A stretch of 58,901 nt of DNA from an uncultured Opitutia bacterium (GTDB lineage Bacteria; Verrucomicrobiota; Verrucomicrobiia; Opitutales; CAJWYM01). The notes below the pieces were generated by a model. It did not search any database. It was given only the letters and a program-made list of their open reading frames with translations, and was not told where the DNA came from. A program made the translations under genes and the position numbers. Location of the stretch: the NCBI GenBank assembly GCA_913049555.1, contig CAJWYM010000010.1:1-58901 (forward strand), read 5' to 3'. Shown in pieces: positions 1,011-49,473 of this stretch. Position 1 is the stretch's first letter, and each line of letters opens with the position of its first letter.

Positions 1011-1040
1011 AAATATATCCTTTTAGATCAACCTCCAATT

Positions 1041-2453: not shown

Positions 2454-2652
2454 AAAAAAAGTTTCCGTTTATTTCCTTAGAATCTCAAACTAAAAAAAGA
2501 TTCCACTCTTGAAAATACTTTCAAATAGAAGCCCTTTAAAACAAATTTTTAGAAGCGTAAACAAGACCATCCAAGAAGAAAGAATTTAAGCCATAAATAA
2601 ATAGCAAATTGCTAGTCCAATCAAAATCTTAAGGAGGATCGCTCTCTTTTCA

Positions 2653-2701
2653 GGTCTAAGGTCTAAGGTCTAAGGTCTAAGGTCTAAGGTCTAAGGTCTA
2701 A
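2653..2701. repeat. Tandem heptamer repeat, 7 perfect copies of GGTCTAA
   Basis: Seven uninterrupted, identical copies of the 7-bp unit ggtctaa fill 49 bp. They begin 22 bp past the stop of the XylR-type gene and lie in the 270-bp gap before mpl. There is no imperfect copy at either edge. A short inverted repeat (tagcaa, one base, ttgcta) lies at 2602-2614 in the same gap. Such a short perfect array is prone to slippage and probably varies in copy number. It is not CRISPR: unit too short and no spacers. No function can be read from the sequence. Confidence 0.95.
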
Positions 2702-2723
2702 AAATCAAAATTTCCTTGTTCAC

Positions 2724-3875
2724 TCAAACCACTTTTTGAAATTTTTTCCTGTACGCTGTCGGTGTCAAAAGGGTGACTTGTTTGAAACTGACCGAAAATC
2801 TCTCAGCGGAACTAAAACCTGATTTTTCTGCAATTTCGGGCATTTGCATACTTGTATCTAGTAAAAGTCTTTCCGCTCTTTCCACTTTCAATCGGACAAT
2901 TTCTTCTCTTGGAGTCTTTTTCAAATACAATTGGAACAATTTCTCTAAGCTTCTTCTTGAGACCCGACAATGCCTTACAACCTCCTCTACACTCAAATTA
3001 GCGGAAATATTATTCCTAATAAAATAGACTGCTTGGACTAAGACCGGATTGTCAATATACAACATATCGGAGGATTGCCTATGCTCTATAAGGGAGGGTT
3101 CAATAAGGGTTGTAAGAGGAAAATCAAAATTTTTTTTGCAAATTTTGACCAAGTTTTGAGTCGCCTGATACCCAATCTGAGCCCATGGAATTCGAACACT
3201 CGACAAAGGTGGATTCACTAAATCACAAATGAGGGGATCATTATTAGCGGAAATCACTGCAAAATCATCTGGAATTTTAATTCCCAATTGACGGCACCTT
3301 TCCAATAGAGATCTACCTAGAGGATCATGAGCAGTAAAAATCGCACAAGGTTTAGGTAAAGACTGCAACCATTCACTTGCCGTAGATTGATGATCTTGCC
3401 AATATTCAGTATACCTGCGAACGACCTCTACCCTTTCAATGAATTTATGAACCTGCAATCCTTTGGTGTTTAAAAAAGATTCATAACCTTTCAGTCGTTG
3501 CTCTGAATAGTGAGTATTATTGCCGTAAAATGCGATCTCCCTGTAGCCTTGATTTAAAAAATATCTGGCAACAGAATATCCGACTTCTCGATCATTTACA
3601 TCCACATATCTGCAATTTTCATATTTAAAATCCTCTGCATCATTTGGACAAATAACCACAGGCAACTGAATTTTATCTAAAATAGGTCGAGTCAACCCAA
3701 GTATGTATTCACTGATAATCCCATCCGGTTTCCATTGATCTAATAACTCAGTGATTTCCTCCAAAGGTCTATAAATATCAATCTGCCAGAACTCATAACC
3801 CTCTTGAACGAATGGAATAAAGCCTGGAGAAAATCGATTTATATTGGTAGGAGAGGCAATTAAAGCAATTTTCAC
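2724..3875 (-). CDS. XylR-type transcriptional regulator (LacI-like ligand domain + AraC HTH)
   Basis: A 383-residue regulator. Residues 1 to about 270 resemble the periplasmic-binding-protein fold of LacI/GalR effector domains (VGYSVARYFLNQGYREIAFYG; IPDDFAVISANND). Residues about 278-383 form an AraC/XylS DNA-binding domain with two helix-turn-helix units (LSVEEVVRHCRVSRRSLEKLF; MPEIAEKSGFSSAERFSVSFK) and the usual TPTAYRKKF ending. This arrangement is that of E. coli XylR (392 aa) and is very common in Verrucomicrobiota, Lentisphaerae and Planctomycetes, where it usually senses a sugar. The start is GTG. No sugar transport or catabolic gene lies next to it, so the ligand cannot be inferred. 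The adjacent genes are peptidases and mpl. Confidence 0.9.
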   Translation of the reverse strand: MKIALIASPTNINRFSPGFIPFVQEGYEFWQIDIYRPLEEITELLDQWKPDGIISEYILGLTRPILDKIQLPVVICPNDAEDFKYENCRYVDVNDREVGYSVARYFLNQGYREIAFYGNNTHYSEQRLKGYESFLNTKGLQVHKFIERVEVVRRYTEYWQDHQSTASEWLQSLPKPCAIFTAHDPLGRSLLERCRQLGIKIPDDFAVISANNDPLICDLVNPPLSSVRIPWAQIGYQATQNLVKICKKNFDFPLTTLIEPSLIEHRQSSDMLYIDNPVLVQAVYFIRNNISANLSVEEVVRHCRVSRRSLEKLFQLYLKKTPREEIVRLKVERAERLLLDTSMQMPEIAEKSGFSSAERFSVSFKQVTLLTPTAYRKKFQKVV

Positions 3876-3936
3876 CAGAAATTCAAAAGGATTTTAATCA
3901 GGATCTACAGAGTCATATTCTCTATCACGAATTCAA

Positions 3937-5325
3937 TCAAACGCCAGCAAGATCGCCAATTATTTTTTCAAAAGTCAGAATTCCTTTTTTCATAATATTA
4001 AGATCAAAACTTTCATCGGGTGCATGTAAATTGTCCTCGGGCGTGAACAAACCAATCATAACCGAATCCAAACCCGCTACATCTTTAAGATCTGCAATAA
4101 TTGGAACGCTCCCACCTTCCCGCAAGTAAAGGGGCTTCTTTCCAAAAACTTCAGCAATTCTTTTCTCTGCACTTTTGAAGGCATCTACCATAGCTTGAAC
4201 CTGACCCTCAGGCGTGTTGGGTTTATTTGGCGGAATGACTACATAAGGATTTCCTTCGCCGTGGACCTTAATATTCGCTCTTATTCCAGCTGGAACTCTG
4301 GATTCAATCGCTTCTTTAACTAACTTTTCGATCTTCTTACTCTCTTGATTCGATACAAGTCTACAGCTTATTTTGACAAATGCCTTGCTTGGAATAACAG
4401 TCTTTGTTCCCTCACCCTGATAACCCCCACCAAAACCATTGAATTCTAAAGTGGGTGCAAATCGAACCGATTCATGGACAGAATATCCATCTGGAGGAAA
4501 GAAAGCATCCACATCCAAAAATTCTTTGTATTCATCTACGGAACCTGGAAACTTTAAAAGCTCCTCTCTCTCCCAGTCTTCGACAGGAAGAACATCCTCA
4601 TAAAAACCTTCAATATTTACGAGTCCCTTTTCGGTGTGTAAACTAGAACATAAATCCGCAAGAGCACGAATTGGATTTACGACTGGACCCCCGTGCAATC
4701 CAGAATGTAAGTCTGATTTTGGACCGGTCAACTCCACTTCTAATGAAACCAAACCTCTCAGTCCAGTCGTGATTACTACTTGATCTTCACTAGGTATACA
4801 AGTATCCGAAACTAAAACAAAATCCGCTCGAGACAAATCATGCTGATAATCTTTTAAAAATTGGCTAAAACTCGGACTTCCAATTTCCTCTTCCCCTTCT
4901 ATTAAATAAGTAATATTCAAAGGCAAATCGGGTTGTTTCTTCAATAAATTCGCGAGAGCACACAAGTGAACAATTTGGGGTCCTTTATTGTCTGCAGCTC
5001 CTCTCCCATAAAGACGATGGCCGCGAACCTCTGCATGAAACGCTGAACTACTCCAAAGGTTTAAAGGATCTGCTGGTTGAACATCGTAGTGACCATAAAT
5101 AATAATATGGGGCCAAGTAGGATCTCCATGACGCTTGGCCAAAACTATCGGGTGCAAGGGGGTTTCAACGATTTCCACATGAAAATCTAATTCTTCTAGC
5201 AAATGAACTACAAATTCTCGAGCCCCTGAAAGGCCTGCTTTATAATTTGAATCCGCGGATATGCTAGGAAAAGAGATATACTTTTTGAGTAATTCCTCGG
5301 GATTTGAAAAAGATTCTGACATCAT
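3937..5325 (-). CDS. M20 family dipeptidase (zinc/cobalt metallopeptidase)
   Basis: A 462-residue M20 peptidase of the dipeptidase/carnosinase type. Metal ligands and catalytic residues are in place: H79 and D81 in GHYDVQP, bridging D112 in GAADNKGP, the glutamate pair in GEEEIGS (about 145-147), D174 in VSDT, and H434 in HAPDES near the C-terminus. A dimerisation domain lies between about residues 190 and 340. No signal peptide is seen, so it probably hydrolyses small peptides in the cytoplasm. The ATG overlaps the TAA of the upstream M48 lipoprotein gene by one base (TAATG), so the two are probably translationally coupled. A second ATG follows immediately (residue 2). Confidence 0.93.
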   Translation of the reverse strand: MMSESFSNPEELLKKYISFPSISADSNYKAGLSGAREFVVHLLEELDFHVEIVETPLHPIVLAKRHGDPTWPHIIIYGHYDVQPADPLNLWSSSAFHAEVRGHRLYGRGAADNKGPQIVHLCALANLLKKQPDLPLNITYLIEGEEEIGSPSFSQFLKDYQHDLSRADFVLVSDTCIPSEDQVVITTGLRGLVSLEVELTGPKSDLHSGLHGGPVVNPIRALADLCSSLHTEKGLVNIEGFYEDVLPVEDWEREELLKFPGSVDEYKEFLDVDAFFPPDGYSVHESVRFAPTLEFNGFGGGYQGEGTKTVIPSKAFVKISCRLVSNQESKKIEKLVKEAIESRVPAGIRANIKVHGEGNPYVVIPPNKPNTPEGQVQAMVDAFKSAEKRIAEVFGKKPLYLREGGSVPIIADLKDVAGLDSVMIGLFTPEDNLHAPDESFDLNIMKKGILTFEKIIGDLAGV

Positions 5326-17526: not shown

Positions 17527-18336
17527 TTAATGAGAATCTTTTCTACTTATAAATGTTGCAAAGCCTCTTTCCCCAGAATTAAAAAAACTTAAAAAATCAA
17601 TGATTGCATCGTGCAAATCAGATTTCTCTAAATGTTTCGAATAATCTTGGGCTAGAACTTTTGTATTCGTGGAAGAAAAAACATACCTAAACGCTTCTTT
17701 CAACTGTTTGATAGTGCTCCTATCGATTCCGCTCCTTTTCAAACCAATCAAATTCAATCCATTAATAGCATTTCGACCCGTAACCATACAATAGGGCGCA
17801 ACATCTTTTGTAATTACAGTGAGGCCCCCTACCATTACGCCCGCACCTATTCTAGCGAATTGATGAACGGCTGCACCTCCCCCAATAAATGTTTTGTCTC
17901 CGACAAAAACATGACCTGCTAAGAGAACTGCGTTTGCTAATACTACGGAGTCTCCAATCTGACAATCATGAGCAACGTGTGAATTGGCCATAAGCAAACA
18001 CTTTTCACCAACAATCGTGTTCTTTTCCTTATAACACGAACGATGAACAGTCACTCCCTCCCTCAAAACAGTATTGTCTCCAATAATTACTCCCGAATTG
18101 GTACTCTGAATAAATCCTAAAAATTGAGGGTCTCCGCCAATAACAGAAAAACTGTCTATTTTGCAATATTTACCAATTTTAGATCCTCTCCTAATCACAC
18201 AATGACTGTCTATTGAACTGCCATCCTCGATCTGCGCACCAGATTCAATAATTGAAAAAGGACCCACTAAAACACTCTCTGAAACAATTGCTCCTGGCTC
18301 AACAATTGCAGAGGGATGAATATTAAATTTGGACAT
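17527..18336 (-). CDS. lpxA: UDP-N-acetylglucosamine O-acyltransferase (LpxA)
   Basis: LpxA adds the first 3-hydroxyacyl chain to UDP-GlcNAc in lipid A synthesis. The 269-residue protein is a left-handed beta-helix of hexapeptide repeats (residues about 5-185). ANSHVAHDCQIG contains the catalytic His (H123, equivalent to E. coli H125), and the specific motif NAINGLNLIGLKRSGI is intact. A helical C-terminal part follows. This proves an LPS-type outer membrane. LpxA normally sits with lpxD/fabZ/lpxC; here it follows the 13.4-kb coiled-coil gene by 17 bp on the same strand, so it is either the second gene of a very long transcript or has a promoter inside that gene. Confidence 0.95.
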   Translation of the reverse strand: MSKFNIHPSAIVEPGAIVSESVLVGPFSIIESGAQIEDGSSIDSHCVIRRGSKIGKYCKIDSFSVIGGDPQFLGFIQSTNSGVIIGDNTVLREGVTVHRSCYKEKNTIVGEKCLLMANSHVAHDCQIGDSVVLANAVLLAGHVFVGDKTFIGGGAAVHQFARIGAGVMVGGLTVITKDVAPYCMVTGRNAINGLNLIGLKRSGIDRSTIKQLKEAFRYVFSSTNTKVLAQDYSKHLEKSDLHDAIIDFLSFFNSGERGFATFISRKDSH

Positions 18337-18353: not shown

Positions 18354-21300
18354 TTATTCAAAAACAAGATTTTCAGCAGTCAATTGAATGTTGTTTAAAC
18401 CAGAGCGAATCTCAATCGGTTGAGACCAAACGGTTCCCTCTGGTCCAGCGGAAGTAGCTCCTATGATGAAATAACTGCCAGCAGATAAATCCTTGATAGT
18501 GAGCTCCCCTTTGCTATTAGTTCTACCACGCCCTACGCTTTTAGATGCCAAAAAGGATCGAATTTTGGCAGCGATCCCCGGGTAACTAAAACCATTTTTC
18601 AAAGACTTTCTCCATAAATCCGCCATAGAATTCACCGATCGTCCAGAAGGGACTTGAATTCCAGAGTCAGACAATAAACTTTCAAGATCCTGAGATACAA
18701 CAAAAAACTCTTTATAATAAACCGCAGTCACTCCTCTAGGACCGTTGATGGAAGCATTGACTTTTAATTGAGCATTTTTTAATACCGTCCTCGAACCAAT
18801 ATCAGCAGCTATTGTTTTGGGAGAATCTTCTTCAGGATTCAAATCAAAGTTCAATGGAGAAGACAATCGATCGTTACTAATTGAAATTTTAGGGATTTGT
18901 GAGATTGAAGAGGCTGAATTATTGGAAGATTGACTGCTAGACAATCTAGAAACCAACTCTAGCAAACGCTTGTTTTCTGAACGCAGTCTTTCTAAATTAA
19001 TGTTGGCTTGATCTTTCTGATTAATGATCCCTGAGAGTGCCTCTGTCAAACGAACAACCTCAGACTCCTTAGAAGCGAATTCACTTCTACGACGAGTAAT
19101 CTCATCCTGCAATCTTCCAACCAATCCCTTTAAATTGTTCACTTCAGAAGATGCATTTGAAGTCACTGAAACGCGCTGCTCCAATTTATTTTTATCAATA
19201 ATCAATTCATTAATTTTATCAGCAGAGCGATTTACTTTAATTAAAAGCAACTCATTTTCTTGACCCAAGGATATCAATTTACTCTCTAAACCTCTAGCCT
19301 CTTCAGCCAAATCAGCTTTTTGTTCCTTCAAGGTCTGCAAAGAAATGTTTAATTCCTCATTTCGAATCTCAAGGGAGGAAATTTTATCAGATCCTTCAGT
19401 GTTTACTGGTTGCCCCGAAAGGGAAATTTCCCTTTCTAAAGATTTTCTTTCCTCCTGAAGGCGTCTTATCTCAGCTTCCATGATAGATTGATTGTTTTGC
19501 AAATTAGATAAATTAGTAACTGCCGTTCCTAGTTGTTGGTTTGTGTCATCAGACTCCAACGCAATGTTTTGATTGAGAATCTTTAAATTCTCATTTTCAC
19601 TTTGCAAATTATTCATCCGATTCTGCAACCGAGAGATTTGCTCCGTTTGAACTTTAATTGTATCTAAATTTTGCTGCTCAACCTCTTTTTGGCTTCTAAA
19701 ATTGGAGGCTTTATCATTTAAAGAAACGATATTATCCGAAAGTCTTTTTATTTCAAACGCACGATCTTCCAAAACTTCATTCAACCTTTCTATTGTTTCA
19801 TCTTTATCACTCAAAGAAGTTCTTAGAGATTCCAACTCCCTCTTCAACAATACAAGGTTTTCGTTCAATGTATCGCCCTCAGCCGAAATTTTCTGTAATT
19901 GAGAAATCTTAACTTGTGCTTGCCGTAGATCCCTTAAATAATTTTTAGCTTCTTGATCCGAAAGATTTCTCTGTTCGATATTTTTAGCAAGCTCAGCCTC
20001 TAAAATTTTAATATGGTCGCTTAATCGACTCACGGTTTGATTGGCATCGAGCAATTTATCGTTTCTATCTTTGACCTTAAAGTTGCTATCATTTTGTAAA
20101 CTGGACAACTTCTGCCGTAATTCTTTGGCCTCTCTTTCGGCAGATTCCAGAGATTTTTTCATTTGCTCCGTTGCTATAGAAACGTTTGCGTATTTTTCTT
20201 TTATTTCAAAAAGTTGATCCTCAATGATTTTAGAACTCGATGATTTCGCTTGAGAACGAATTAAGTCCTGCTCCATATCACGGATCAATGTCATTCTTCG
20301 CTCTACGGTCATCTGTAGGGAAAGAATTTTTTTAAAGGCACCCATCAATTCTTTTCTAAGAATATCCGCTTCCTTATTAAATTTTTTTGCAGCTAATTGG
20401 CTTTGCTCGAGTTCATTCTGCAAGGAATCCATCTTTGCAAGATTGCGACCATTAGCATCATCAATCTCTTCAATCTGGGTTACTTTGAGTCGCAATTCTT
20501 TGGATTCAACTTCTAAAGAAGCAATGGTAGACTTGGCTTTTCTCAAGCTCGTTTTTAAATCTAAAATCTTATCATTCGAATCTTTTAAATCTCGTTCTAA
20601 ACGGATTTTTTCTCGACTGCTTTGTTCGTCCTTTACAGACAAATTCAACTTTTGATTTTCATTTTTCAATGATTTATTTTTACTGATGAGTTCATTCAAT
20701 GATTGCTCTGTCTCCTCTAGAGCCAATCTTAATGAAGAAAGAATTTGTTCTTTTTCCTGCAATCTTTGTGAATTCTTTTTTAAATTCATTTCCAGAGAAT
20801 TAATTCTGTCATCCCTAGAGTTCCCCTCTTTGTTTAAAAGACGTAGACGCTCTAATTCATTGTTTAAAGACTGAACCTTAGAACGGGTTTCAGACAACTG
20901 ATTTTGATAATCATTTTCTGTTTTAAGAAGCTCTCTCTGGAGACTTTCTTGAATCTCTAATAAATTCGACTCCAAGCTTTTTACTTTTTCCTCCAATAAT
21001 TTTTTCTCCTCGGCAGCTAAGGTGTTTTTACTGTTTCTAATTACTTTTAATTGTTTACGATAATCTTGAACTTCAAATTCATACTTTTCCTTAAGATTCT
21101 TATATTCGTTCTGACTAGAGTTTAAAACTTGTTTCAATTCAGCAATTTGAAATCTTAATTTTTCAAATTCATCAGGGCTAGAGGATGTGGATATTTGATT
21201 GCGAGCCTCGGCTAATTCACGTCTCAAAAGATCCATCTCACTCTGAAGGTCCTTTCGCTCTGAATCAAAAGCATCGGTTAGTAAAACGATCGTATCTTCA

Positions 21301-24300
21301 CTGGAGGTTAATTTAATATTTAAAGCCTTTATAAGCTCTTTTAAATCCTCCTCCGATTTGGAACGATTTTTAGAACGGATTTCATTTTTCAAAACAACTA
21401 CTTGAGAATTAAGTTTTTTGATAATCTTATCTGAACTTAATTTCAAATCCAAGAATTCCGAATTTTTAAGGGAAAGTTCTTTTTTGGCAAGGATCAAGGA
21501 GGATTCCATATCTGCCATCAAGGTTTCGTACTCCTTTGATTTATCTGGATGTTCATTTAAAACAGAAACAGAGGCTGTTTTTTGAAGAATCAATAACTGT
21601 TCTTCAAGTTGAGTAACGGTATTTATGGCATCTAACTTTTCTTTTTTTAACAAAGAAATTTGTTTGTCTGCCTCTGCTAGGTCGGTTTCCAAAGTTGAAA
21701 CCGCACTTTCAATAGACGCTTTTTTAGAAAGAATGCGATTTTTAGTTTCTTTAAGTTCAAAAACGGTGGATTCCAAATCCTTTTGTAAATTGTTGACTTC
21801 TTCACTCAGTTGTTTTTTTGACAGAAAGCTTTCTTTTTTAAATTGCTCCAACTCTTTATTTTTGTCTGCAACTAAAAGCTCCAGTTCATTTAGTTTTTCT
21901 AGAGAGTCTCCGCTCTTATCTTGTTCAATAGTCTCCAGATTGGTGAATTGTTTCCGTAAATCGACTAATTTCTCTTTAAAACGCTGACTTTCTAATTCTT
22001 GAAAAGCGAGCGCTTTTTTTAGTATTCGAACATTTTCAGAGTCGGAGCTTTTCTGTTTTTCATATTCCAATTGAGTTTTTTCCAAATCATTCGTCAATCC
22101 AGAAATTAAATCCTCAAGTTGCTCGATTTCTTTGATGGAATTCTCACTTTTTTGGGAATCAGACAGTGATTTCAATTCATATTCTTTCTGAAGGACTTCC
22201 AACTCCTCTCTGGTTTTAATCAAACTTTCCTCTAAAAACCTTTTTTTATTTTCAACCTCTTTAAATCTAGCAGTTTTCTCATAAATCGAGTCTTTTGCTA
22301 TCTCCAAATCATCCCTTAACTGGATCACTAATTTGGTCTCTTGAATCAATTGGGTGTTGCTCGAAGATAAACTTTCTTTCATGTCCACGCGAAGAGAATC
22401 CAGTTCCAACTCAAGTCCATCGATAGATTGCTGATATTTTTGTTTCAATTCTTCAGACTCATCTACGAGGGCATCATATTTGCTCGAATTCTCTTTCAAA
22501 GAATCCGTTAGATTTTTTATTTTACTTTCGGAGAGAGCTCGCTCCTCCTCTATCAACTCTGTAATTTTGTTCTTTTCTACAACCCCTCTTGCTAATTCTT
22601 TTTCCAAAAGGTTGATTTCTGACTTTTCTCTTTCTAAATTTTTACTAAATTCGACTCGATCTTGATTTAAGGTATTTTGTAAATTTGCTATTTCTTCTCT
22701 TAACTTCGTAATGACATTTTCTAATTCTGCATCTTGCTTTTTATTTGCTTTTTGTTCTACCTCATAATTCTTGGAAACTTCTTCGTATTTGCTTTCAAGA
22801 TTCTTTGTGACGAGATGAAACTGCTCTTGCTTTTCAGATAGTTTCTTTGAAATAAGATCTACTTGAGATTTTAATGTATTTTCTCTCATCAATGCAGACT
22901 CCAATTTAGATTCCATCTCCGATTGTTCAACATCTCTCGTTTGCATTAACATTTTATTGTTTTGCTGAGCCTCTATTAATGAAGATCCCATTTTTTCGAG
23001 TAATTGTGCTCGTTTCTCCAAAACAGCTTCCAATTCCTTTTTTTCAAGATCTGATTGACGAACATGATTGTCGAATGCTTCCTTCAAATTGAGAGTATCC
23101 TTTTTCGTTTTAATACTACTCTCAACCCATTCGGCCTCGAGTTCTTCTGCATTCTTTTTCAATGAAGTCAACTCTCCCTCTAAAAATAGGATGCGATTCT
23201 TATGGGCAGTTAATTGTTGATTTAAATCGACTAATTCAAGCTTTTTAACTCTTAGAACCTCCTCTAAATCGGTGTATTCATTCTTCGAAATATTTAAAGA
23301 TTGCTCACTTTCAATTCTCCTCTCTTCTAGGGATTCTGAATTTGCAATTAAATTGGACAATTCATTTTTTAAGCGATCCAGATCTGAAGTAAAAAACTCT
23401 TCTTGCCTGTTTTTTAAAGTCTGAACAGAAGCCAGTTTAATCTGTAATTCTTTTATAATTTCATCAGATTTTTTTTGTTTGGCTTGTAAGGAGTTTATTT
23501 TTTTTAAACTACTCTCGTTCTTCTTAGAAAAGCCGTCCTTAAGTTGAACAATAAAAGCATCCTGATCTTTGCTTATTTTTTTAGAAAGTTCCTCGAGATT
23601 TTGAGCTTTTTTTAATGTATCTTTGTAAAGATTTCTTTGTGTTTCTAATTCTTGTTTTAATTTTGAATCTCTTTTATCAAGTAAAATCCTCTCATTGTCC
23701 CAGGTGGATTGAAATTTTTCAAACTTTGACTGGGCAACGGAAAGCTCATTCTGGTTGTCAAGGGACTTATTTCTTAACTTCTGTATTTCAATTTTTTTAT
23801 CCTCTAGAGATTCTTGGAATTTAACATCCAGAGTCGACAGATCTTGGCTTTTTTTTGCAATCACAGTGGAAAGATTTTTAAGTTTTGATTCTTGATCCAC
23901 TTTTTTTTGTTCTAATTGAACAATGATATTTTTTAGTCTTTGCACCTCTAATTCATTCGATCCCTTAATTTTAGAAAGCGTCGCACCCGTTTGATCTTTT
24001 ACATTTTCAAGTTCTTGGACTGCCTCGTTAAGCCTTGCTTTAAATTGATTGATACTTTCAGTAGATTCTGATTTTAGTTCCTGCCTTCTAAGAATCCATT
24101 GATCTGCTTTTTCTTTAAATACTTGCTTTGATTGTTCCATCTCTAACTGATTGGTTTTTATCAAATTCAGTAATTTTGTCTTTTCCTGCGACCATAATTT
24201 CTTGGAAGCATCCAAAACATCGCTGATTTCTTTTAACTCATTGTTCTTAGATGCAAGTTCATTCTTCAACTTCGATTGAATTAATTTGCTGGCATTCAAT

Positions 24301-27300
24301 TCCTCAATCAGTGATTGATAACGAAGGGAGTCTTGATTTGTTTTATTTTGTAAAACTTGAACAATTTCTAATTCGAGTTTATTGATTTGAATTTGTTTAT
24401 CAGACAACTCTTTCTCAAGAGACTGGATAGAATTTTCCAATACTTCGGTTTCTTGAAGTTGTATTCTTTTTAACTCTTCGAGATCCGTATTAGAATTCTT
24501 TTTGAGAGTATCCAATTCAAACAACAATCTTTCCTGATCTTCAGACATCTTTCTGGAACTTTTCTTCAATTTATCAGAATCTTTAACCAACTTTTCATAA
24601 AGATCATTTCTTGTTTCTAAATCATTCTCGAGCTTGGACAACGACCGATTCATATTCGCTTTTTCGTCAGCCCAATCCGTTTGGAAATCATCTAATTTCG
24701 ATGCAGCGTTCATCAGTTTTTCAGTTAAAACATTGATTTGAGTCTCACTTTTGATAGCTTGCTCCTGAACTTTCTTATAAGAAAGCTGAGTAGTAACTAA
24801 GGATTCATCGCTTGCAATCCGTTCCTTCATTAAAAGATCGTAGGCTGCATTTTGCTTGTCTAAATTCACTTTCAAGCGAGCTAAATCTTTCGCAAAAGAT
24901 TCTTCCTGTTTTCTTTGATATCCCTCTAAGGAGGAAATCTTTTTTTCTAAGGATTGAATCTGATCCTTGGCCTCTTTTCTTTCTTCCAACTGCGCTTTCA
25001 ATTGCAACTGACTCTCATCGAACTTTTTGGTCAATGCACTCAATAGTTCTTCTTGTTCTTGCTTGATTTTCTGAGAACTTATTTCTAGTGCATCCGCCTG
25101 ATTAAGAGCCTCTTTATACAAAGAATCCTTCCGAACTAAATCACCTTTTAATATAGAAATCGCTTTTTTGAAGTCTTTTTTTTCTTTTTCCCATAGAATC
25201 TGAGATTCTTGATTTTTAAAATCGAGATTTTCATATTCATTTTTTAACTTCTCAATCTTGATAATCAATCGCTTGATTTCCTGTTCTTTTATCGACTGAA
25301 GTTCAGAGAAACCCTTATCGGACTTTTCCTGAATTTCACGAACCCTTTCAACTGCTGCTTTGAGTTGATTCTTTAGTTCTATAGTTTTTTGAGTGCCTTT
25401 TTCGAAAAATTGGGCTTTTTCCAGCTCGAAAGCTTTTGAATTCGAGTTGAAGTCATTTTTAAACTGGTTGAATCTTTCTTCGCTTTTTTGAGTCAATTCT
25501 AATAATTTTGCCTTTTCTTCCGACCAAATGGTCATTGAAGTCCTGTAATCCAATTGCAGACGCTCCAATTCTTTCACTTTAGAAATCAATTCATTGTTAA
25601 GCTTCTCATTAATTTCCTTAGAATCTGCATTTTGTTTGAGTAACTTATTCAGTCGCTCTGCATCTTTTGGGGATTTTTTGTGAGTGTAGTTCTTAATTTC
25701 GTCCTTGAGTCTTTGATTTTCAGTATTTTGGAGGGTCCACTTTTTTTGAATAGACGCAATCGAGTCCTTTAGTTTTTTGGAATCCGCTGCATGGCGGGAT
25801 TTCAAATTTTCGAGATCCTCATTGGATCTTTTCTTGATTTCCTCAATCTGATTCAATGACGAAGTCAACTGTTCTTGTAAAAGCTTGTCCTTAGTTACCA
25901 CTAACAACTGCAATTTTTTAATCAACTGATTCTTAGCAAGGAGCTCTTTTTCAAGATTCTGGATCAGCGAAGTTGAAGATTCATTGACATGTTTCAAATC
26001 AACTTTTGCTAATTTCAACTCCTCTTCGAGGACATTTATCCTATTGTCATTCTGATTATTGAAGTCCTTACTTCTTTTAGCCAATAATTTTTCAGTATTC
26101 GCAATTACTAATTGTTGGGTCTCAATTGTAATCGTATTTTGAGAAAGCAGATTTTCGAAACGTGTTAATTTATCAAGAGTTGTTTTAAGCTCCTCGGATA
26201 AAGAGTCGTTTTTTCGATTGCTAGCTTCTAGGAAGTCTTCCATTTTTGATTTTTCAACTGCATAAGCATCCTCTAGGTTCTCATACTTTTCTTTAAAGAC
26301 CTTTAAAGACTCCATAGAATTCGCTTTTTTCTCAAGCTCAGCCAGTTGTTGCTTGGTAAAATACAATTCATTCTCCAATTTTTTAATAATTTCTGTAGAG
26401 GAATCTTTATTATCAACGAGCTCGGACAAAAGAGATTTAACACGGTTTCTTAAACGTTCTACATCCATTTGAAGTCCCAATGCAATTTTGTCCGCATCTT
26501 TTCTTAAAGTGCTATTGCGGTCCGTCAATTCATCATATTCGTCCAAACGAATCTTTAACATTTTCTTTAATTTACTCACTTCTTCTAAACTTGAATTATA
26601 TTTGTTCTTCAATTCAGAATTAGAGTTCGATAATTGTTCTTCAAGATCCATGATCGAAGATTCAAACCCTTTGATTTTACTAGCAGTTGCGGCTTCGTTT
26701 TCTTTTTTCTGCTTCTCAGCTGAAGCCAACTCTCTGCGTGCAATCCCCTCAATCAGTTTTAACTCATCTTTGGAGTCTGACAATTCAAGCTCTAGCTGTT
26801 TGATTAATTTTATTGAATCCGACTGTTGATTTTCTTTATCGATATTCAAACGCTGCAACTGACCATTTGCCTCATCCAAAAGAGATAAATATTCATCTCT
26901 CTTTTCTTTTAGAGAATTTTTTTCCTTTTTCGACTTTTCTTTTGATTCATCCAACTTTTTTTGAAATTCAAAAAGCTCTGACATCAACTCCTCATTTTGA
27001 TTTTTTGCCTCTATTTTGAATTGATCAAGCATTAAGATAGATTTTTTTAGATTATCTTTTAGTTTCTTAATTTCACTTGAAAGAGCAATTATTTGGCTTT
27101 CTTTGTTTTTAACCACCTCCTGAGTTGTTTTCTCCTTACCCACCAAAAGACCTCGCATTTGATCTAATTCCAACTTTAATTCTTCAATCATATTGGAATG
27201 TTTTGAATCTTGCTCTACTAATTTGGTTCTCAAGAGTGATTCGGCTTTCAATACATTCGAGAGCTCATCTTCAAGTTTTTTAATATTGCTGAAATGAGAC

Positions 27301-30300
27301 TCGCTGGAAAACTCTTTTCTTGAAAGAAGCGCTTTTTCAAGTTTTTCCTTATCTGACTCAGAAATCTTCAGTTGTTTTTTAAGTTTGTCCAACTCTTTGT
27401 AACTGACCGTCAACTTAAATGAAATTTCTTTAAGGCTTTCTGAATACCTAAAATCTGAATCTTCTTGGATTTTTTTAAACAAACTGATTTTTTTATTTAG
27501 CGCTTGTTCTCTTAGATCCTTGGTAGAAATTTTGTCACTCAGTTTTTGTAACTCTTCATCCATCTTTTTGACTAAAAAGTCATTTTTATTATTTAGTGTA
27601 TCGATCTGGTCTCGCAACTGAGACTCGGAAGAAGAAAGATTTACCAATTTTTCCTTTAAATTTTTTACCTGAGCAGACTGATGATCTTTAAGATTTTCTT
27701 CAGAAGTGGATCGCAGCTTCTTTAAGGAGATATTTTCCGTTGCCAATGACTGGAGTTTTTTTCTAGAACTCGCAAGATCAGCTTTTGTCTGGAACAATTC
27801 ATCCGTTAAAATTTTTATATCCTCTAAACTCTTATTCCTCTCAGCCAAATCTTTATCATTCAGGGATTTTAATTTCTCATTTAATCTTTCTTGGGAAACG
27901 TCTTTGTTATTAAGAGTAGATTGCAAAATAGTTAATTCAGATTCGAGCTCACGAATCAATAAGGCTTGCTTCTTTTCTTGAGATTCGTATCGAACTCTTT
28001 GCTTCCTTTCATTTTCGGCTATTTTGGAAAGCGCAATTTCCAAAGATTTAATTTTCTCACCCTGTAGGTTCTTGTCATTTTTGCGATTCGTGAGCGCTTC
28101 ATTGGTATTTTGCTTCTCTAATTGTAATTTATCTATCTGCTTTTTTGCTTTCAATAAGTCTAGAGAAGTTTTTTTCAAATCTTCTTTTAAGACTTCTATT
28201 CTTGAGGAGCTATCCCTCAAGTTGGTCTGCGTCGATTTCTTTAAAAAACTGATTTCAACGGTCAAATTTGCGACTCTTTTTTCTGCATCCTGAACAAGCT
28301 TCGCACTTTGCTCTCTTGCAACAATTGAATTTTGTTCGGCAAGAACCAATTCTTTTTCTAACTCTCGAATAAATTTAAATACTTTGCCCTGATCTTTTTG
28401 GTACTCCTCTTTTGCTGAATCATATGCATTTTGTAACTTTTCCAGCTGATTTTTAAGGAGCTTTACCTGGGAAGATGAATCACGATTATTGATCCCCAAT
28501 TTTTCACTCAAGGTCTCCAATTCGTTCTTAGCAGTGGTGAGTTGTTTTTCTAGAAAAATAATTTCATCAGTAAGCTTCTTTTTTTCGCTTTTAAAATTCT
28601 TGACCTTATTTCCATATTCTTGCTTCAAAGACTTTATATTCAACTCCATCATGGATCTCGCTTTTTCAATCTCTACATCGAATATTTTTTGTTGTTCTTC
28701 AATCTTTTGACTGATGGTTTCCTTTTCTTTCATTTCGTTGGTCAAACGATCTTCTAACTTTGAAATCAATCTAGAAACCTCTTTATTTTTGTTCCTATGA
28801 GTGGCTACAATTTGATCCATTTCAGACTCTGCCTCTTCTAATTGATTTCTAAGAAAATCTGTCTGCTTTTTGGTGATTGCATCTGCTTTGGCATTTTGCT
28901 CAGAAAGCTTTTTATTTTGTTTTTGCAAAGTTGAAATCTGCTTGGTTAGCGCATCGATTCTATTGGATGCGCTCTCTAATTTATCCTTTTGATTTAAATC
29001 CAAAGCGTCCAAAGCCTCTTCTTTACTTTTTAGATCCATCTTAAGGGATAATAGATCTTCGTTAGATTTCACTTTAGAAAGGTTGAGAGCCGACTCATAA
29101 TCCGACATTTTTAAAGAATACTCTTTTATCTTGATTTCCAAGTCCTCGATTTGGTTTTGATAAAGTTTTTTCTCTTCCTCAATTTTCCGAGATTGAGACG
29201 CTCGAGATCTAACGGCATCCTTCAAACTTGAATTCAATTGTTCTAGTTGATTTTGCATTTCAACTGTTTTCTTTTTTCCCAGGAATACCTGTTTACTAAG
29301 ATTACTCTCCGCAATCGATAACTTAGACTTTAAATCACTCACCAACTTCTCGGCATCTTTGATATAAAGATCCTTACTTGCTTTTTCTCGGGTTAAATTT
29401 TTAGTCGTTTCCTCCAATCTTATTAAAACTTTTTCGAGTTCTAATTTATTTACATCCATCAAAGCTTGGTCTTTAGAATGCACTTCTTGCATTAGTTGTA
29501 TATTGTCCCTGAGCTCTGTATTGACTCTCTGCATTTTCGCATAATCAGCAACATGCATCGTTTGCTTTGCAATTAAAGCCTCCCCGCTGGCTTTTAATTT
29601 TTGTTCTAAACTTCGAATTTTATCTGCGCTCTGCTCTTGAATTCTAAGCTGTCTTGTTTGACTGATTGCCAATTCATTCTTAGCTTTCAATAAGGTGCGT
29701 TCGAGCGATGAAATCAAAAAATCGGAATCTTCCTCGTGCTCAAAAAGTTTATCTTTTGCAATTTCCAATTCTCCGCGAACTTTTAAAATAGTGTTCTCGT
29801 AACTGTCAATCAACTGCTGCAAGTTTTCATCCCTTAAATCGATCTGACTGCTTGTTTGATTGAGTTGAATGGAGGCGGAATTTAAATTTTTAATTTGATT
29901 ACGCGCAGAAATAAGTTGCTTTTCCAACTGCACATTTTTCTGAAGAGCCACTTCTAATTCTTTTCCACTGTCACGAATAATTATGGATGACGTATTCTTC
30001 AAACGAGAGATCAAATCCTGTTTCTCTATTTCTAGTGTTCGGACCGTTGAAGTAAGAAATGAGATCTGCTTGGAGGCATCTGCTTCAAATTTCTTATCCG
30101 CAATTTTTAAGGCTTCCATTTGGTTTTTAGACTCCTCTAACTGAATTTTCAGTAGATCAAGATCATTATTTTTAAAATTTTTGTATTCTAGTGATTTTTT
30201 CTTTAATTCTTCAACCCTAAGTAAGGATTGTTCTAAAGCTGAATCCCGTTCAGCCAATTTCAATTTATAAAATTTTTCTAATTTTGCTTTTTCTTGAATC

Positions 30301-31742
30301 AATTGTTTTTCAATATTTACGATCTTCGAAATCGAATCATCTCCTACTGATTTTGATAGTTTTAGCTCTTTGTTTAGTAGATTATTTTGCTTTTCAAGAT
30401 CATTAACAAGGATTTTAGCGTTTTCTTCAGCTGAATTTCTAAGTGAAATTTCTTCAACAATCTTTCGATCCAATTCAAGAAGTTTCTTTTTAAAATTATT
30501 GATTTTCTGATTACTCTCTTTGCTTATGGCATCATAAGCACTGGACAATTCTTTGTTTTTTCTTCTTTCAGCTTCAAGTTCGGCAACCAAGCCTTTTAAT
30601 CTGGCGACTCTTGCAGATTCATTGCTAGATCTTGCTTTTAATAGGGTATCTCTCTCATTTGAAATGGAAACCAACTCATTTTTGAGTCTTTTTATCTTCT
30701 CTTTGGAATCTTGCAGTTTAGACTCAAGGGATATTCTTAGTTCAGACAATTGGTAAACAGAATCCTCTTCTATCTGTTTGGCAATCATCGTTTGAGAACG
30801 GAGTTTGCCTTTGGTATTTTCTAAAGCTTTCTCTAAACTTTTAATTTCCTCCAAACTGTTATCAATTCCAGTTCGGCGATTGTCTTCAGCTTCATTTAAA
30901 GCTAATTTAAGGGTTGCAATCTCTTGGTCCAAGGCAGCCAAAATCTGTTTTGAATCTTCTCTTTCAGATTGCTGATTGGCGATAGCAAGGGAAAGCTGCT
31001 CTTTTGACAATGCCAATTGATCTCGCAAAGACTCAATTTGTTTGGTATTGACTGAATTTATCAAACTTACTGAGGTACTTATTTTTTCAGAAGTTTGTAT
31101 TTTTTCACCATTCTCAAATCTACTTAAAGCTTCCGTATAAATACTTTTACCAGGATTGAGTCGAACTGCCTCTTCTAGAGCAGATTTTAATTGCCAATTA
31201 AAACGAAAAGGACTCAGCATTCCTTCTTTTTGAATTTTTTTGCTGTTAGTAGACAAAAATAGGCTTAATTGAAAATGCAATTCTGAGTTACTTGGGTCGA
31301 TTTCTATTGCCTGAAGATAAGAAGCAAAAGCATTTCTCAAATCAGCCTGAGAATTGTAATACTCTCCAAGAACTATTTTAATAAAAGGAGACTCAGGCAG
31401 GAAACGATCCGCTTTTAAAAAAAAGGGAAGCCCCTTTTTAGGTTGGTTTATTTTATTTAAATAAACGCCATACAATATATTTGCATATGCATTCTTAGGA
31501 TTCTTGGTCAGATAATTGGTCAACTTCCGATCTAAGACATCCGAGGGAGACCCTGAAGAGAATTCAGTCACCTCTTTAACCAAGGATTTTAAAATGGAGT
31601 CATTCGTTTGACTTTGAACAATCTTGATAGCCTGTGAATAGGGAGATTCAGCTATCAAACGGGTATAATTGCACAAAGATAAAATTAACAGGAGTAGTGG
31701 TAGTAGTAATAATTTTAATTTCACACTTAGAAAATGATACAT
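18354..31742 (-). CDS. Giant exported coiled-coil protein, 4,462 aa
   Basis: One uninterrupted reading frame encodes a protein of about 0.5 MDa. Order of parts: signal sequence (residues 1-31; LLLLPLLLLI core, possible cleavage after LIA); a TPR-like helical region (about 66-208, with AFASYLQAIEIDPS); a heptad-rich coiled coil from about 228 to 4267; a Ser/Pro linker (about 4268-4322); and a compact C-terminal domain (4323-4462). The rod is Glu/Lys/Leu/Ser rich. I count only about four prolines in it and see no cysteine. There is no Walker A motif, so it is not an SMC/Rad50 ATPase. A continuous rod of 4,000 residues would span roughly 0.6 micrometres at 0.15 nm per residue. The C-terminal domain is shared with the 352-aa protein at 48.4 kb. 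Function unknown; an envelope tether, stalk or ruler is inference. Confidence 0.93.
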   Translation of the reverse strand: MYHFLSVKLKLLLLPLLLLILSLCNYTRLIAESPYSQAIKIVQSQTNDSILKSLVKEVTEFSSGSPSDVLDRKLTNYLTKNPKNAYANILYGVYLNKINQPKKGLPFFLKADRFLPESPFIKIVLGEYYNSQADLRNAFASYLQAIEIDPSNSELHFQLSLFLSTNSKKIQKEGMLSPFRFNWQLKSALEEAVRLNPGKSIYTEALSRFENGEKIQTSEKISTSVSLINSVNTKQIESLRDQLALSKEQLSLAIANQQSEREDSKQILAALDQEIATLKLALNEAEDNRRTGIDNSLEEIKSLEKALENTKGKLRSQTMIAKQIEEDSVYQLSELRISLESKLQDSKEKIKRLKNELVSISNERDTLLKARSSNESARVARLKGLVAELEAERRKNKELSSAYDAISKESNQKINNFKKKLLELDRKIVEEISLRNSAEENAKILVNDLEKQNNLLNKELKLSKSVGDDSISKIVNIEKQLIQEKAKLEKFYKLKLAERDSALEQSLLRVEELKKKSLEYKNFKNNDLDLLKIQLEESKNQMEALKIADKKFEADASKQISFLTSTVRTLEIEKQDLISRLKNTSSIIIRDSGKELEVALQKNVQLEKQLISARNQIKNLNSASIQLNQTSSQIDLRDENLQQLIDSYENTILKVRGELEIAKDKLFEHEEDSDFLISSLERTLLKAKNELAISQTRQLRIQEQSADKIRSLEQKLKASGEALIAKQTMHVADYAKMQRVNTELRDNIQLMQEVHSKDQALMDVNKLELEKVLIRLEETTKNLTREKASKDLYIKDAEKLVSDLKSKLSIAESNLSKQVFLGKKKTVEMQNQLEQLNSSLKDAVRSRASQSRKIEEEKKLYQNQIEDLEIKIKEYSLKMSDYESALNLSKVKSNEDLLSLKMDLKSKEEALDALDLNQKDKLESASNRIDALTKQISTLQKQNKKLSEQNAKADAITKKQTDFLRNQLEEAESEMDQIVATHRNKNKEVSRLISKLEDRLTNEMKEKETISQKIEEQQKIFDVEIEKARSMMELNIKSLKQEYGNKVKNFKSEKKKLTDEIIFLEKQLTTAKNELETLSEKLGINNRDSSSQVKLLKNQLEKLQNAYDSAKEEYQKDQGKVFKFIRELEKELVLAEQNSIVAREQSAKLVQDAEKRVANLTVEISFLKKSTQTNLRDSSSRIEVLKEDLKKTSLDLLKAKKQIDKLQLEKQNTNEALTNRKNDKNLQGEKIKSLEIALSKIAENERKQRVRYESQEKKQALLIRELESELTILQSTLNNKDVSQERLNEKLKSLNDKDLAERNKSLEDIKILTDELFQTKADLASSRKKLQSLATENISLKKLRSTSEENLKDHQSAQVKNLKEKLVNLSSSESQLRDQIDTLNNKNDFLVKKMDEELQKLSDKISTKDLREQALNKKISLFKKIQEDSDFRYSESLKEISFKLTVSYKELDKLKKQLKISESDKEKLEKALLSRKEFSSESHFSNIKKLEDELSNVLKAESLLRTKLVEQDSKHSNMIEELKLELDQMRGLLVGKEKTTQEVVKNKESQIIALSSEIKKLKDNLKKSILMLDQFKIEAKNQNEELMSELFEFQKKLDESKEKSKKEKNSLKEKRDEYLSLLDEANGQLQRLNIDKENQQSDSIKLIKQLELELSDSKDELKLIEGIARRELASAEKQKKENEAATASKIKGFESSIMDLEEQLSNSNSELKNKYNSSLEEVSKLKKMLKIRLDEYDELTDRNSTLRKDADKIALGLQMDVERLRNRVKSLLSELVDNKDSSTEIIKKLENELYFTKQQLAELEKKANSMESLKVFKEKYENLEDAYAVEKSKMEDFLEASNRKNDSLSEELKTTLDKLTRFENLLSQNTITIETQQLVIANTEKLLAKRSKDFNNQNDNRINVLEEELKLAKVDLKHVNESSTSLIQNLEKELLAKNQLIKKLQLLVVTKDKLLQEQLTSSLNQIEEIKKRSNEDLENLKSRHAADSKKLKDSIASIQKKWTLQNTENQRLKDEIKNYTHKKSPKDAERLNKLLKQNADSKEINEKLNNELISKVKELERLQLDYRTSMTIWSEEKAKLLELTQKSEERFNQFKNDFNSNSKAFELEKAQFFEKGTQKTIELKNQLKAAVERVREIQEKSDKGFSELQSIKEQEIKRLIIKIEKLKNEYENLDFKNQESQILWEKEKKDFKKAISILKGDLVRKDSLYKEALNQADALEISSQKIKQEQEELLSALTKKFDESQLQLKAQLEERKEAKDQIQSLEKKISSLEGYQRKQEESFAKDLARLKVNLDKQNAAYDLLMKERIASDESLVTTQLSYKKVQEQAIKSETQINVLTEKLMNAASKLDDFQTDWADEKANMNRSLSKLENDLETRNDLYEKLVKDSDKLKKSSRKMSEDQERLLFELDTLKKNSNTDLEELKRIQLQETEVLENSIQSLEKELSDKQIQINKLELEIVQVLQNKTNQDSLRYQSLIEELNASKLIQSKLKNELASKNNELKEISDVLDASKKLWSQEKTKLLNLIKTNQLEMEQSKQVFKEKADQWILRRQELKSESTESINQFKARLNEAVQELENVKDQTGATLSKIKGSNELEVQRLKNIIVQLEQKKVDQESKLKNLSTVIAKKSQDLSTLDVKFQESLEDKKIEIQKLRNKSLDNQNELSVAQSKFEKFQSTWDNERILLDKRDSKLKQELETQRNLYKDTLKKAQNLEELSKKISKDQDAFIVQLKDGFSKKNESSLKKINSLQAKQKKSDEIIKELQIKLASVQTLKNRQEEFFTSDLDRLKNELSNLIANSESLEERRIESEQSLNISKNEYTDLEEVLRVKKLELVDLNQQLTAHKNRILFLEGELTSLKKNAEELEAEWVESSIKTKKDTLNLKEAFDNHVRQSDLEKKELEAVLEKRAQLLEKMGSSLIEAQQNNKMLMQTRDVEQSEMESKLESALMRENTLKSQVDLISKKLSEKQEQFHLVTKNLESKYEEVSKNYEVEQKANKKQDAELENVITKLREEIANLQNTLNQDRVEFSKNLEREKSEINLLEKELARGVVEKNKITELIEEERALSESKIKNLTDSLKENSSKYDALVDESEELKQKYQQSIDGLELELDSLRVDMKESLSSSNTQLIQETKLVIQLRDDLEIAKDSIYEKTARFKEVENKKRFLEESLIKTREELEVLQKEYELKSLSDSQKSENSIKEIEQLEDLISGLTNDLEKTQLEYEKQKSSDSENVRILKKALAFQELESQRFKEKLVDLRKQFTNLETIEQDKSGDSLEKLNELELLVADKNKELEQFKKESFLSKKQLSEEVNNLQKDLESTVFELKETKNRILSKKASIESAVSTLETDLAEADKQISLLKKEKLDAINTVTQLEEQLLILQKTASVSVLNEHPDKSKEYETLMADMESSLILAKKELSLKNSEFLDLKLSSDKIIKKLNSQVVVLKNEIRSKNRSKSEEDLKELIKALNIKLTSSEDTIVLLTDAFDSERKDLQSEMDLLRRELAEARNQISTSSSPDEFEKLRFQIAELKQVLNSSQNEYKNLKEKYEFEVQDYRKQLKVIRNSKNTLAAEEKKLLEEKVKSLESNLLEIQESLQRELLKTENDYQNQLSETRSKVQSLNNELERLRLLNKEGNSRDDRINSLEMNLKKNSQRLQEKEQILSSLRLALEETEQSLNELISKNKSLKNENQKLNLSVKDEQSSREKIRLERDLKDSNDKILDLKTSLRKAKSTIASLEVESKELRLKVTQIEEIDDANGRNLAKMDSLQNELEQSQLAAKKFNKEADILRKELMGAFKKILSLQMTVERRMTLIRDMEQDLIRSQAKSSSSKIIEDQLFEIKEKYANVSIATEQMKKSLESAEREAKELRQKLSSLQNDSNFKVKDRNDKLLDANQTVSRLSDHIKILEAELAKNIEQRNLSDQEAKNYLRDLRQAQVKISQLQKISAEGDTLNENLVLLKRELESLRTSLSDKDETIERLNEVLEDRAFEIKRLSDNIVSLNDKASNFRSQKEVEQQNLDTIKVQTEQISRLQNRMNNLQSENENLKILNQNIALESDDTNQQLGTAVTNLSNLQNNQSIMEAEIRRLQEERKSLEREISLSGQPVNTEGSDKISSLEIRNEELNISLQTLKEQKADLAEEARGLESKLISLGQENELLLIKVNRSADKINELIIDKNKLEQRVSVTSNASSEVNNLKGLVGRLQDEITRRRSEFASKESEVVRLTEALSGIINQKDQANINLERLRSENKRLLELVSRLSSSQSSNNSASSISQIPKISISNDRLSSPLNFDLNPEEDSPKTIAADIGSRTVLKNAQLKVNASINGPRGVTAVYYKEFFVVSQDLESLLSDSGIQVPSGRSVNSMADLWRKSLKNGFSYPGIAAKIRSFLASKSVGRGRTNSKGELTIKDLSAGSYFIIGATSAGPEGTVWSQPIEIRSGLNNIQLTAENLVFE
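18357..18776 (-). other. C-terminal ~140-aa domain of the giant protein, shared with a second protein
   Basis: This segment encodes residues 4323-4462. The first half is helical (EFFVVSQDLESLLSDSG, then YPGIAAKIRSFL). The second half looks like a small beta sandwich of the carboxypeptidase-regulatory/transthyretin type (RTNSKGELTIKDLSAG, SYFIIGA, GPEGTVWSQPIEI, NNIQLTAEN). The protein at 48415-49473 ends with the same sequence of elements. It is probably the anchoring or binding head of the rod. Confidence 0.8.
23100..25530 (-). repeat. Long-period internal repeats in the coiled-coil rod
   Basis: Tryptophans are rare in the rod but recur here in WxxEK-type blocks at about 25525, 25192, 24673, 24193 and 23701. 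Three of them (25192, 24673, 23701) start homologous segments with the pattern W, then SxLxxxLxxRxxLY about 13 residues later, then SxKxxxxQ. The other two (25525: WSEEKAKLLEL; 24193: WSQEKTKLLNL) are also alike, as are the segments after them. Spacings are 111, 173, 160 and 164 residues. This suggests growth of the rod by duplication of segments a few hundred residues long. Confidence 0.6.
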
Positions 31743-48414: not shown

Positions 48415-49473
48415 ATGTCTCCTATGAACAGACTCACTAAACCTCTTTTAAAAAGAGTTTTAATTGTTTTTTATTCAACGTTTTTTATTCCAATTTCTCT
48501 AATTTTCTCCGAAGAAGAAGAAAAAAAGTGGAAGATGCGTGATAGTAACAACTTCTTTTGGGACAATCGGAGCAAAGAAATCAGGGAAACAATTCGTTCC
48601 AAAAATGATAAAATAAGCGCTCTTGAAAATGACCTTGCTACAAAAGATTTAGCTTTATCTATCCAAGAAAATAAAAATGTCCAACTAAAAAAACAAATCG
48701 AAGAACTTGATAAGGAGAGAAAAACGCTGCTAAGAAGAGTGAATATTAGAGATAAAGAAATTCTTGGCTTACAAGTTCGTCTCAAAAGAATCTCCAAAGA
48801 CTTAAAGAACTCTGAATTTAAAATTGAAAAGATAACGAATCAGACTTCAGATTCTTTCCCATCTCTAATAAATGGAGCCAATAAAAAAACAGAAGAAAAA
48901 ATCACTTCTTACATATTGAGTAATGTTTCGGATTCAAAGAAGATTTCCACCAAAACAGACGTAGATGAAACTCAAAATCGAAAAGTCTTTCCTAATGAAA
49001 TTCCGAAAAAAATCAAAAATCCTAATTTAGATTCATTCACTCAGCAAGAAGACTTAATCTTTCAAGCTTTCTCAGTAAACGAGCAAGGAGCAGTCACAAA
49101 AGCGTACCTATCGGAATTTTTCCTGACCACGAAACCACTAGATACTCTTCTAAAAAACACTGGAATGGAGAGTCTTTCTGCGGATGATAGTAAAAATATT
49201 TATGAAACTTGGGCTTACGCTGCTAACGACAGGAAAAAATACCCACAAATTGCCTCTAAAATTAGAACCCATCTACTAGAATCCTGCTATTTAAGAGTTC
49301 GTACGGATTTTGATGGTATTGGCAAATTAGATCCTATTGAAAATGGAAAGTATTATTTAATCGGTCTCGTTCAAATCGGTTCAGTAGGAACCGTTTGGGA
49401 AATGCCAATAATTAAGAAAGAACAACCCATCAACATACAGTTGTCTCAAAGGAATTCAAACTGGTATCGTTAA
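48415..49473 (+). CDS. Exported coiled-coil protein, 352 aa, small paralogue of the giant protein
   Basis: Same plan as the 4,462-aa protein in miniature: a signal or anchor segment (residues 14-32, VLIVFYSTFFIPISLIF), a coiled coil (about 50-150; KISALENDLATKDLAL, VQLKKQIEELDKERK), a Lys/Ser/Thr linker (150-205) and a C-terminal domain (211-352). That last domain aligns with the giant's end: VTKAYLSEFF against VTAVYYKEFF, YPQIASKIRTHL against YPGIAAKIRSFL, GTVWEMPI against GTVWSQPI, NIQL against NIQL. No other domain is seen. It stands alone between cysK and pdxH. Function is unknown; it probably acts with, or in the same way as, the giant. Confidence 0.88.
   Translation: MSPMNRLTKPLLKRVLIVFYSTFFIPISLIFSEEEEKKWKMRDSNNFFWDNRSKEIRETIRSKNDKISALENDLATKDLALSIQENKNVQLKKQIEELDKERKTLLRRVNIRDKEILGLQVRLKRISKDLKNSEFKIEKITNQTSDSFPSLINGANKKTEEKITSYILSNVSDSKKISTKTDVDETQNRKVFPNEIPKKIKNPNLDSFTQQEDLIFQAFSVNEQGAVTKAYLSEFFLTTKPLDTLLKNTGMESLSADDSKNIYETWAYAANDRKKYPQIASKIRTHLLESCYLRVRTDFDGIGKLDPIENGKYYLIGLVQIGSVGTVWEMPIIKKEQPINIQLSQRNSNWYR

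Follow-up and report, generated by a model that had tools for sequence, protein, structure and literature searches.

Gene and Domain Architecture

What a bacterium might build from a single 4,462-residue protein, most of it one coiled-coil rod, is the question raised by a 13.4-kb gene in the window, i.e., the whole 58,901-nucleotide stretch of an uncultured Opitutia genome that was analysed here. The gene forms one unbroken frame of 4,462 codons at 18,354–31,742 on the minus strand (ATG at 31,742, stop at 18,354–18,356); the initial annotation had given these coordinates and this length exactly, leaving the strand unstated. It had also described an exported product with a signal sequence, a TPR-like region, a rod of about 4,000 residues with almost no proline and no cysteine, and a compact C-terminal domain, and this layout was borne out, for the TPR region by both AF2 and Pfam. 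Within residues 216–4250 (ca. 4,035 residues), four prolines (2025, 3399, 3523 and 4112) and no cysteines were found; the single cysteine of the whole protein, residue 24, lies within the signal peptide. GC content by codon position was nearly constant along the gene (GC1, 0.42–0.45; GC3, 0.28–0.36), although GC2 fell within the rod relative to the two ends. GC1 and GC3 resembled those of the neighbouring genes, as one coding frame would give. No exact tandem DNA repeats were present within the gene. The lack of stops over 13 kb had been taken to imply strong selection; this argument is weak alone, and better evidence comes from the phase-locked core and one-sided stutters described below.

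The protein begins with a signal peptide read from the sequence (residues ca. 1–31, MYHFLSVKLKLLLLPLLLLILSLCNYTRLIA; 31,650–31,742, minus strand), in which LSLC does not form a canonical lipobox (Leu at −1); a comparable signal starts all four TPR paralogues of this genome. It is followed by a TPR domain (residues ca. 32–212; 31,107–31,649, minus strand), in which Pfam TPR_17 was detected above its cut-off (E 8e-6). The AF2 model of this head consisted of helical pairs with a mean pLDDT of 86.7 and most residues above 90, and TPR structures aligned to it with Z scores of 13–15 over ca. 150 residues, values that are usual among helical repeats and thus support only a TPR-like fold. The giant shares its signal peptide and a homologous TPR region with an exported TPR protein of ca. 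300 aa found across the order, though not the full TPR length, as its domain stops near residue 212 and the last part of the ca. 250-residue TPR region is missing. A profile of the head was present in 144 of the 223 genomes of the order, normally as one copy in a frame of ca. 280–400 aa. In the present genome, a 567-aa protein on contig C5 was the best match of every relative examined and is therefore regarded as the orthologue of the order-wide protein; it matched the giant's head with E 3e-16. The gene adjoining this orthologue, which we take to encode an M50-type peptidase, was also its neighbour in four relatives. As a separate observation, the order-wide conserved exported TPR protein (L007, 3,631–5,334, minus strand), which has the peptidase gene adjoining it in several genomes, was covered by no characterised family. 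MamA, PilW and FlcA were considered as identities of the TPR proteins and rejected, as their NCBIfam matches were weak and far under the cut-offs. A search for the head on plasmids found no giants there.

At the other end, a short Ser/Pro-containing linker (residues ca. 4276–4317; 18,792–18,917, minus strand) joins the rod to the C-terminal domain or tail (residues 4318–4462; 18,357–18,791, minus strand), which AF2 modelled from 23 relatives with a pLDDT of 93.7. The model, structure matches and family alignment A1 point to a transthyretin/prealbumin-like beta-sandwich with a helical insert. The tail model matched PA1324 with a Z score of 8.8 over 108 residues, and transthyretin, CnaB/CnaB2 pilin and carboxypeptidase-D-type domains with Z scores of ca. 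7–7.7; a family missing from a list of fold matches was not counted as excluded. Its topology was that of the seven-to-eight-stranded sandwich of CarboxypepD_reg, SpaA and CnaB domains, and no transthyretin/prealbumin-like family passed its Pfam cut-off (best, SpaA with E 7e-4 among 23 tail members). The helical insert, at model residues 33–86, bears the best-conserved motif, ELWA...YP..A..IR. As in the C-terminal domain family of Opitutia (alignment A1), the giant combines the ELWA..YP..A..IR insert with GxYFxIG...GVVWS strands at the extreme C-terminus. Sequence searches of the PDB returned no match for the whole giant and weak matches only for the tail profile. As pilins, enzymes and transport proteins share it, the modelled fold is generic and points to no ligand.

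Periodicity and Chain Arrangement of the Rod

The rod between these domains (residues ca. 215–4275; 18,918–31,100, minus strand) was delimited by composition, periodicity and a heptad HMM. Its hydrophobic periodicity peaked at 81–84, compared with 6.7 after shuffling. Training of this seven-state HMM was unguided and left all phase jumps open to it; the resulting core was 66% hydrophobic at a and 54% at d. Judged by its sequence, the rod forms a true coiled coil. Phase jumps were almost exclusively of the +4 type in the giant (107 of 117) and in a 5,126-aa paralogue (126 of 131), i.e., stutters, in which heptads are interrupted by an eleven-residue repeat; the rods of f2, a neighbouring family of uncultured Opitutia, had mixed phase jumps. 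Stutters were commonly spaced 25, 32 or 39 residues apart, and this spacing accounts for both the mean core period of 3.553 and the autocorrelation peaks at the same lags (peaks at 32, 7, 14, 25, 57 and 39). The lag-32 peak was also found in the rods of relatives. Such even spacing would give an under-wound, uniform supercoil of ca. 190 rather than 105 residues per turn, which might suit a long straight rod. The FilP/Scy group of bacterial intermediate-filament-like coiled coils similarly combines a long coiled coil with a superposed non-heptad repeat. These proteins are cytoplasmic and are not known to carry an export signal, and the Scy repeat spans 51 residues; the giant differs in its export signal and its stutter spacing of 25, 32 or 39 residues, and a 51-residue repeat of the FilP/Scy type was not among its autocorrelation peaks.

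The hydrophobic stripe kept its phase over a long distance. Between residues 230 and ca. 3330, the phase at a period of 3.553 deviated from its mean by no more than ca. 80 degrees, which defines a phase-locked stretch of ca. 3,100 residues (residues 231–3330; 21,753–31,052, minus strand). The corresponding spectral peak of 89 was reached by none of 200 random-stutter simulations (mean 29, maximum ≤62) and by none of 300 shuffles of the rod's inter-stutter segments (mean 33, maximum ≤81). Phase locking was weaker in the 5,126-aa paralogue, whose peak was reached by 20 of 200 simulations and 3 of 300 shuffles. In the last ca. 600 residues, the giant's rod shifted to the canonical period of 3.5.

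When two chains run parallel and in register, each g position faces the following e position across the coiled coil, and by established rules, beta-branched residues at a with Leu at d mark a parallel dimer. Opposite charges from i to i+5 were enriched only at g–e' (z −3.6 in the giant and −3.3 in the 5,126-aa paralogue), with z values of −1.2 to +2.1 in the other registers, and Ile and Val made up 28% of a but 6% of d positions. A strict, HMM-free version of the g–e' test, in which numbers were small, gave z −2.6 for the giant (n = 38), −0.5 for the 5,126-aa protein (n = 47; not significant), −3.7 for f2 rods and +0.6 for those of family f18 (not significant). The charge pairing and core residues together indicate a predicted parallel dimer, and 4,035 residues at 0.1485 nm would extend over 0.60 micrometre. 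Both the parallel arrangement and the length of about 0.6 micrometre proposed in the initial annotation were thus supported.

Paralogues and Lengthening of the Rod

The source genome is a 3.1-Mb draft in 102 contigs. Searching it with the head recovered three more proteins, namely the 567-aa protein on contig C5, which has no rod, and adjacent proteins of 1,306 and 5,126 aa on contig C18, each with a signal peptide, a TPR domain and a coiled-coil rod. The 5,126-aa giant (L005, 604–15,984, minus strand) has a stutter-paced rod behind its TPR head and lacks the transthyretin-like tail. Its gene starts 11 bp downstream of that of the 1,306-aa protein (L005, 15,996–19,916, minus strand), whose rod contains a strong and young tandem array of 125 residues (lags 125, 250 and 375). 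The tail, in turn, recovered two short proteins, one of 368 aa on contig C16 and one of 352 aa in the window (48,415–49,473, plus strand); the latter consists of a signal peptide, a short coiled coil, a linker and a tail of the giant's type (33% identity over 129 aa). Lipoboxes were recognised by eye on the short tail type of f2, f18 and contig C16 of this genome (VASC in L057, LGGC in L070 and IVSC in L009, the last from the present genome).

Ungapped lag scoring of the giant's rod detected self-repeats at lags of 444 (197 residues, 29% identity), 324, 128, 501 and 173, all scoring higher than any of 20 simulated rods; self-BLAST of the giants returned nothing. In the first of these repeats, copy 1 (residues 1963–2159; 25,266–25,856, minus strand) was 29% identical to copy 2 (residues 2407–2603; 23,934–24,524, minus strand) in the ungapped self-comparison. 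These internal repeats and the 125-residue array in the 1,306-aa neighbour indicate that the rods lengthen by duplication.

Distribution of the Modules in the Order

Comparison with related genomes, in which the family of the present genome was represented by this genome alone, located the tail in 29 of the 223 genomes of the order. A phylum-wide search of 388 genomes with the tail profile returned only the present genome and one weak match, implying that the tail is clade-restricted. Genomes of f2 mostly carry three tail copies, one ending a coiled-coil protein of 1,792–2,053 aa and two in proteins of ca. 400 aa, and encode the short TPR protein separately from the protein with rod and tail. 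In f18, the TPR head carries a rod of ca. 1,600 residues without a tail; order-wide TPR proteins extended by such a coiled-coil rod were observed in L106 (5,029–10,797, minus strand) and L107 (4,687–9,549, minus strand). In terms of its predicted domains, the giant is a fusion of head and tail modules that are separate in f2. Fused parts usually act together, and as the giant joins modules encoded apart in f2, its head and tail would be expected to do so.

Searches of 132 genomes of the order with the rod sequence itself returned no homologue at 1e-8, and therefore no orthology with the rods of f2 or f18 is claimed. Synteny with the f2 rod genes, which adjoin Nuo-type antiporter genes, was sought and not found, and the gene neighbourhoods of the lineages revealed no shared partner. 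The protein had initially been presented as having a layout not known from any described bacterial protein. None of the systems compared below has this layout, but the protein is not a solitary case, given the longer paralogue in the same genome and the separate modules in relatives.

Proposed Role in the Cell Envelope

In our assessment, the chances are evenly balanced that the giant is an exported, two-chain parallel coiled-coil rod of ca. 0.6 micrometre serving the cell envelope as a mechanical tether or spacer. The rod would stay beyond the inner membrane without a membrane anchor of its own. Its TPR head might dock a partner peptide or protein, and its tail might dock onto the two short tail-sharing proteins, one of which looks lipid-anchored, or at their site. 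From the shared domain, the docking site of the tail is probably where these two short proteins dock, and the lipoboxes recognised by eye on short tail proteins imply that this site would be at a membrane. The two-stranded rod could then link or space two envelope or extracellular sites. Because 0.6 micrometre is too long to stand across the periplasm, the rod would either follow the envelope lengthwise or project beyond the cell. Downstream of the giant's gene, after a gap of 17 bp and on the same strand, lies what is presumably an lpxA-like acyltransferase gene (17,527–18,336, minus strand), a neighbour that is consistent with an envelope role of the giant and no proof of it. No terminator-like site was found in the 17-bp gap, and co-transcription of the two genes is possible.

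The same length would suit the cell surface far better than the periplasm, and the rod might instead cross the outer membrane as a surface stalk or adhesive fibre, presenting an end domain, most likely the tail, to cells or particles. Among the nearest folds of the tail are PA1324 and domains of pilins and adhesins, and most other giant proteins of bacteria are surface proteins (PMC11573180; PMC12863079). However, Pfam detected no domain in the giant for outer-membrane anchoring or export, such as an autotransporter barrel, an SLH or a sortase domain, and no secretion-partner gene lies beside it, which leaves this role conceivable but doubtful. It is less likely again that the rods pack laterally in the periplasm to form a cell-shaping belt resembling intermediate filaments, capped by the end domains. 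A core stripe in phase over 3,100 residues is what ordered lateral packing would need, and this genome encodes two giants alongside a 1,306-aa rod, whereas no long regular charge repeat for staggered packing was found, the peaks of the charge spectrum being weak (≤12). We consider it improbable that only the head and tail matter and that the rod drifted longer by duplication under a purely local coiled-coil constraint. The internal duplications of the giant's rod, the young 125-residue array in the 1,306-aa neighbour and the great variation in rod length among lineages (1,792 to 5,126 residues) would agree with such drift, but local constraint alone gives no long-range phase order of the kind observed here, and the f2 rod proteins stay within the narrow range of 1,792–2,053. 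An assembly or gene-prediction artefact, which the initial annotation had named as a potential refutation and which a draft in 102 contigs might favour, is very unlikely and already contradicted by the uniform codon-position GC, the continuous hydrophobic periodicity, the gene's freedom from exact tandem repeats and the independent presence of a similarly designed giant of 5,126 aa on a different contig.

The envelope tether remains our preferred reading, and a broader version of it may be proposed tentatively. The giants might belong to lineage-specific envelope rods with an interchangeable TPR head, a stutter-paced shaft and a transthyretin-like tail, whose rod length is adjusted between 400 and 5,000 residues through in-register duplication. 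A uniform, under-wound shaft in phase over hundreds of nanometres would then constitute a single-chain, micrometre-scale element.

Comparison With Known Systems

Most giant proteins known from bacteria are enzymes, pilin-like proteins or beta-repeat surface proteins. No Pfam or NCBIfam family covered the rod or the whole protein. The giant had been described as free of ATPase motifs and unlike SMC proteins, and indeed no match to a Walker A or ABC signature was found, which sets it apart from SMC, MukB and Rad50; the NCBIfam SMC model reached 55 of the 567 bits needed to pass its cut-off, with the match over the coil only. SMC, MukB and Rad50 share with the giant a long parallel-type coiled coil, whereas the giant has neither ATPase head nor hinge, is exported and has a rod several times longer. 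These three were the longest bacterial coiled coils in an early survey, in which coiled-coil domains of >400 residues were absent from the bacterial genomes covered (PMC1322226).

Envelope connectors and surface giants, i.e., SlpA, the Apilactobacillus giants and Gli521, are the closest functional parallels, and none has the giant's layout. Deinococcus SlpA and related connectors between the outer membrane and peptidoglycan are likewise exported coiled-coil envelope spacers between two end modules, but SlpA is trimeric, carries SLH and an outer-membrane barrel and spans ca. 29 nm, whereas the giant lacks these features and is about twenty times longer (PMC9388160). Pfam found no match in the giant to an SLH domain and outer-membrane barrel of the SlpA/OmpM type or to the C-terminal barrel of trimeric autotransporter adhesins, and its C-terminus is instead a sandwich domain. 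The Giant proteins of Apilactobacillus kunkeei are also exported (3,000–8,000 aa), and Giant5 is mostly one very long helix. They differ in their Gram-positive host, their SH3b-like wall-binding C-terminus and the lack of a TPR or transthyretin-like module, and Giant5 has no consistent coiled-coil prediction (PMC12863079). Gli521 of Mycoplasma mobile is a force-transmitting surface rod of similar size (4,727 aa), but it is divided into oval, rod and hook domains, has a membrane segment at its C-terminus and belongs to a wall-less bacterium, and no homology to it was found (PMC7052211).

PVC bacteria were already known as rich in giant proteins (PMC11573180). The present protein is a tether-type coiled coil, and what is new is its size, module set and shaft design. 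The two giants would represent a largely undescribed way to build a very long single-protein tether, with two predicted exported parallel coiled coils of 4,000–4,700 residues in one 3.1-Mb genome and modules traceable to short proteins of relatives. They provide a concrete case of bacteria lengthening a mechanical element and allow a clear test for long-range selection on coiled-coil phase. For marine Verrucomicrobiota, which are abundant and uncultured, they constitute a new candidate structure of the envelope.

Other Features of the Window

Two further features were observed in the window. A perfect 7-bp tandem repeat, AGGTCTA, occurs in 7.1 copies at 2,652–2,701 between two minus-strand frames and could be a slippage-prone element. 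At 57,192–58,901 on the minus strand, a frame open at the contig end encodes a Gly/Ser/Thr-rich repeat protein with a PEP-CTERM-like tail, VPETSTIVSISGLLFLLLFLFLKKK.
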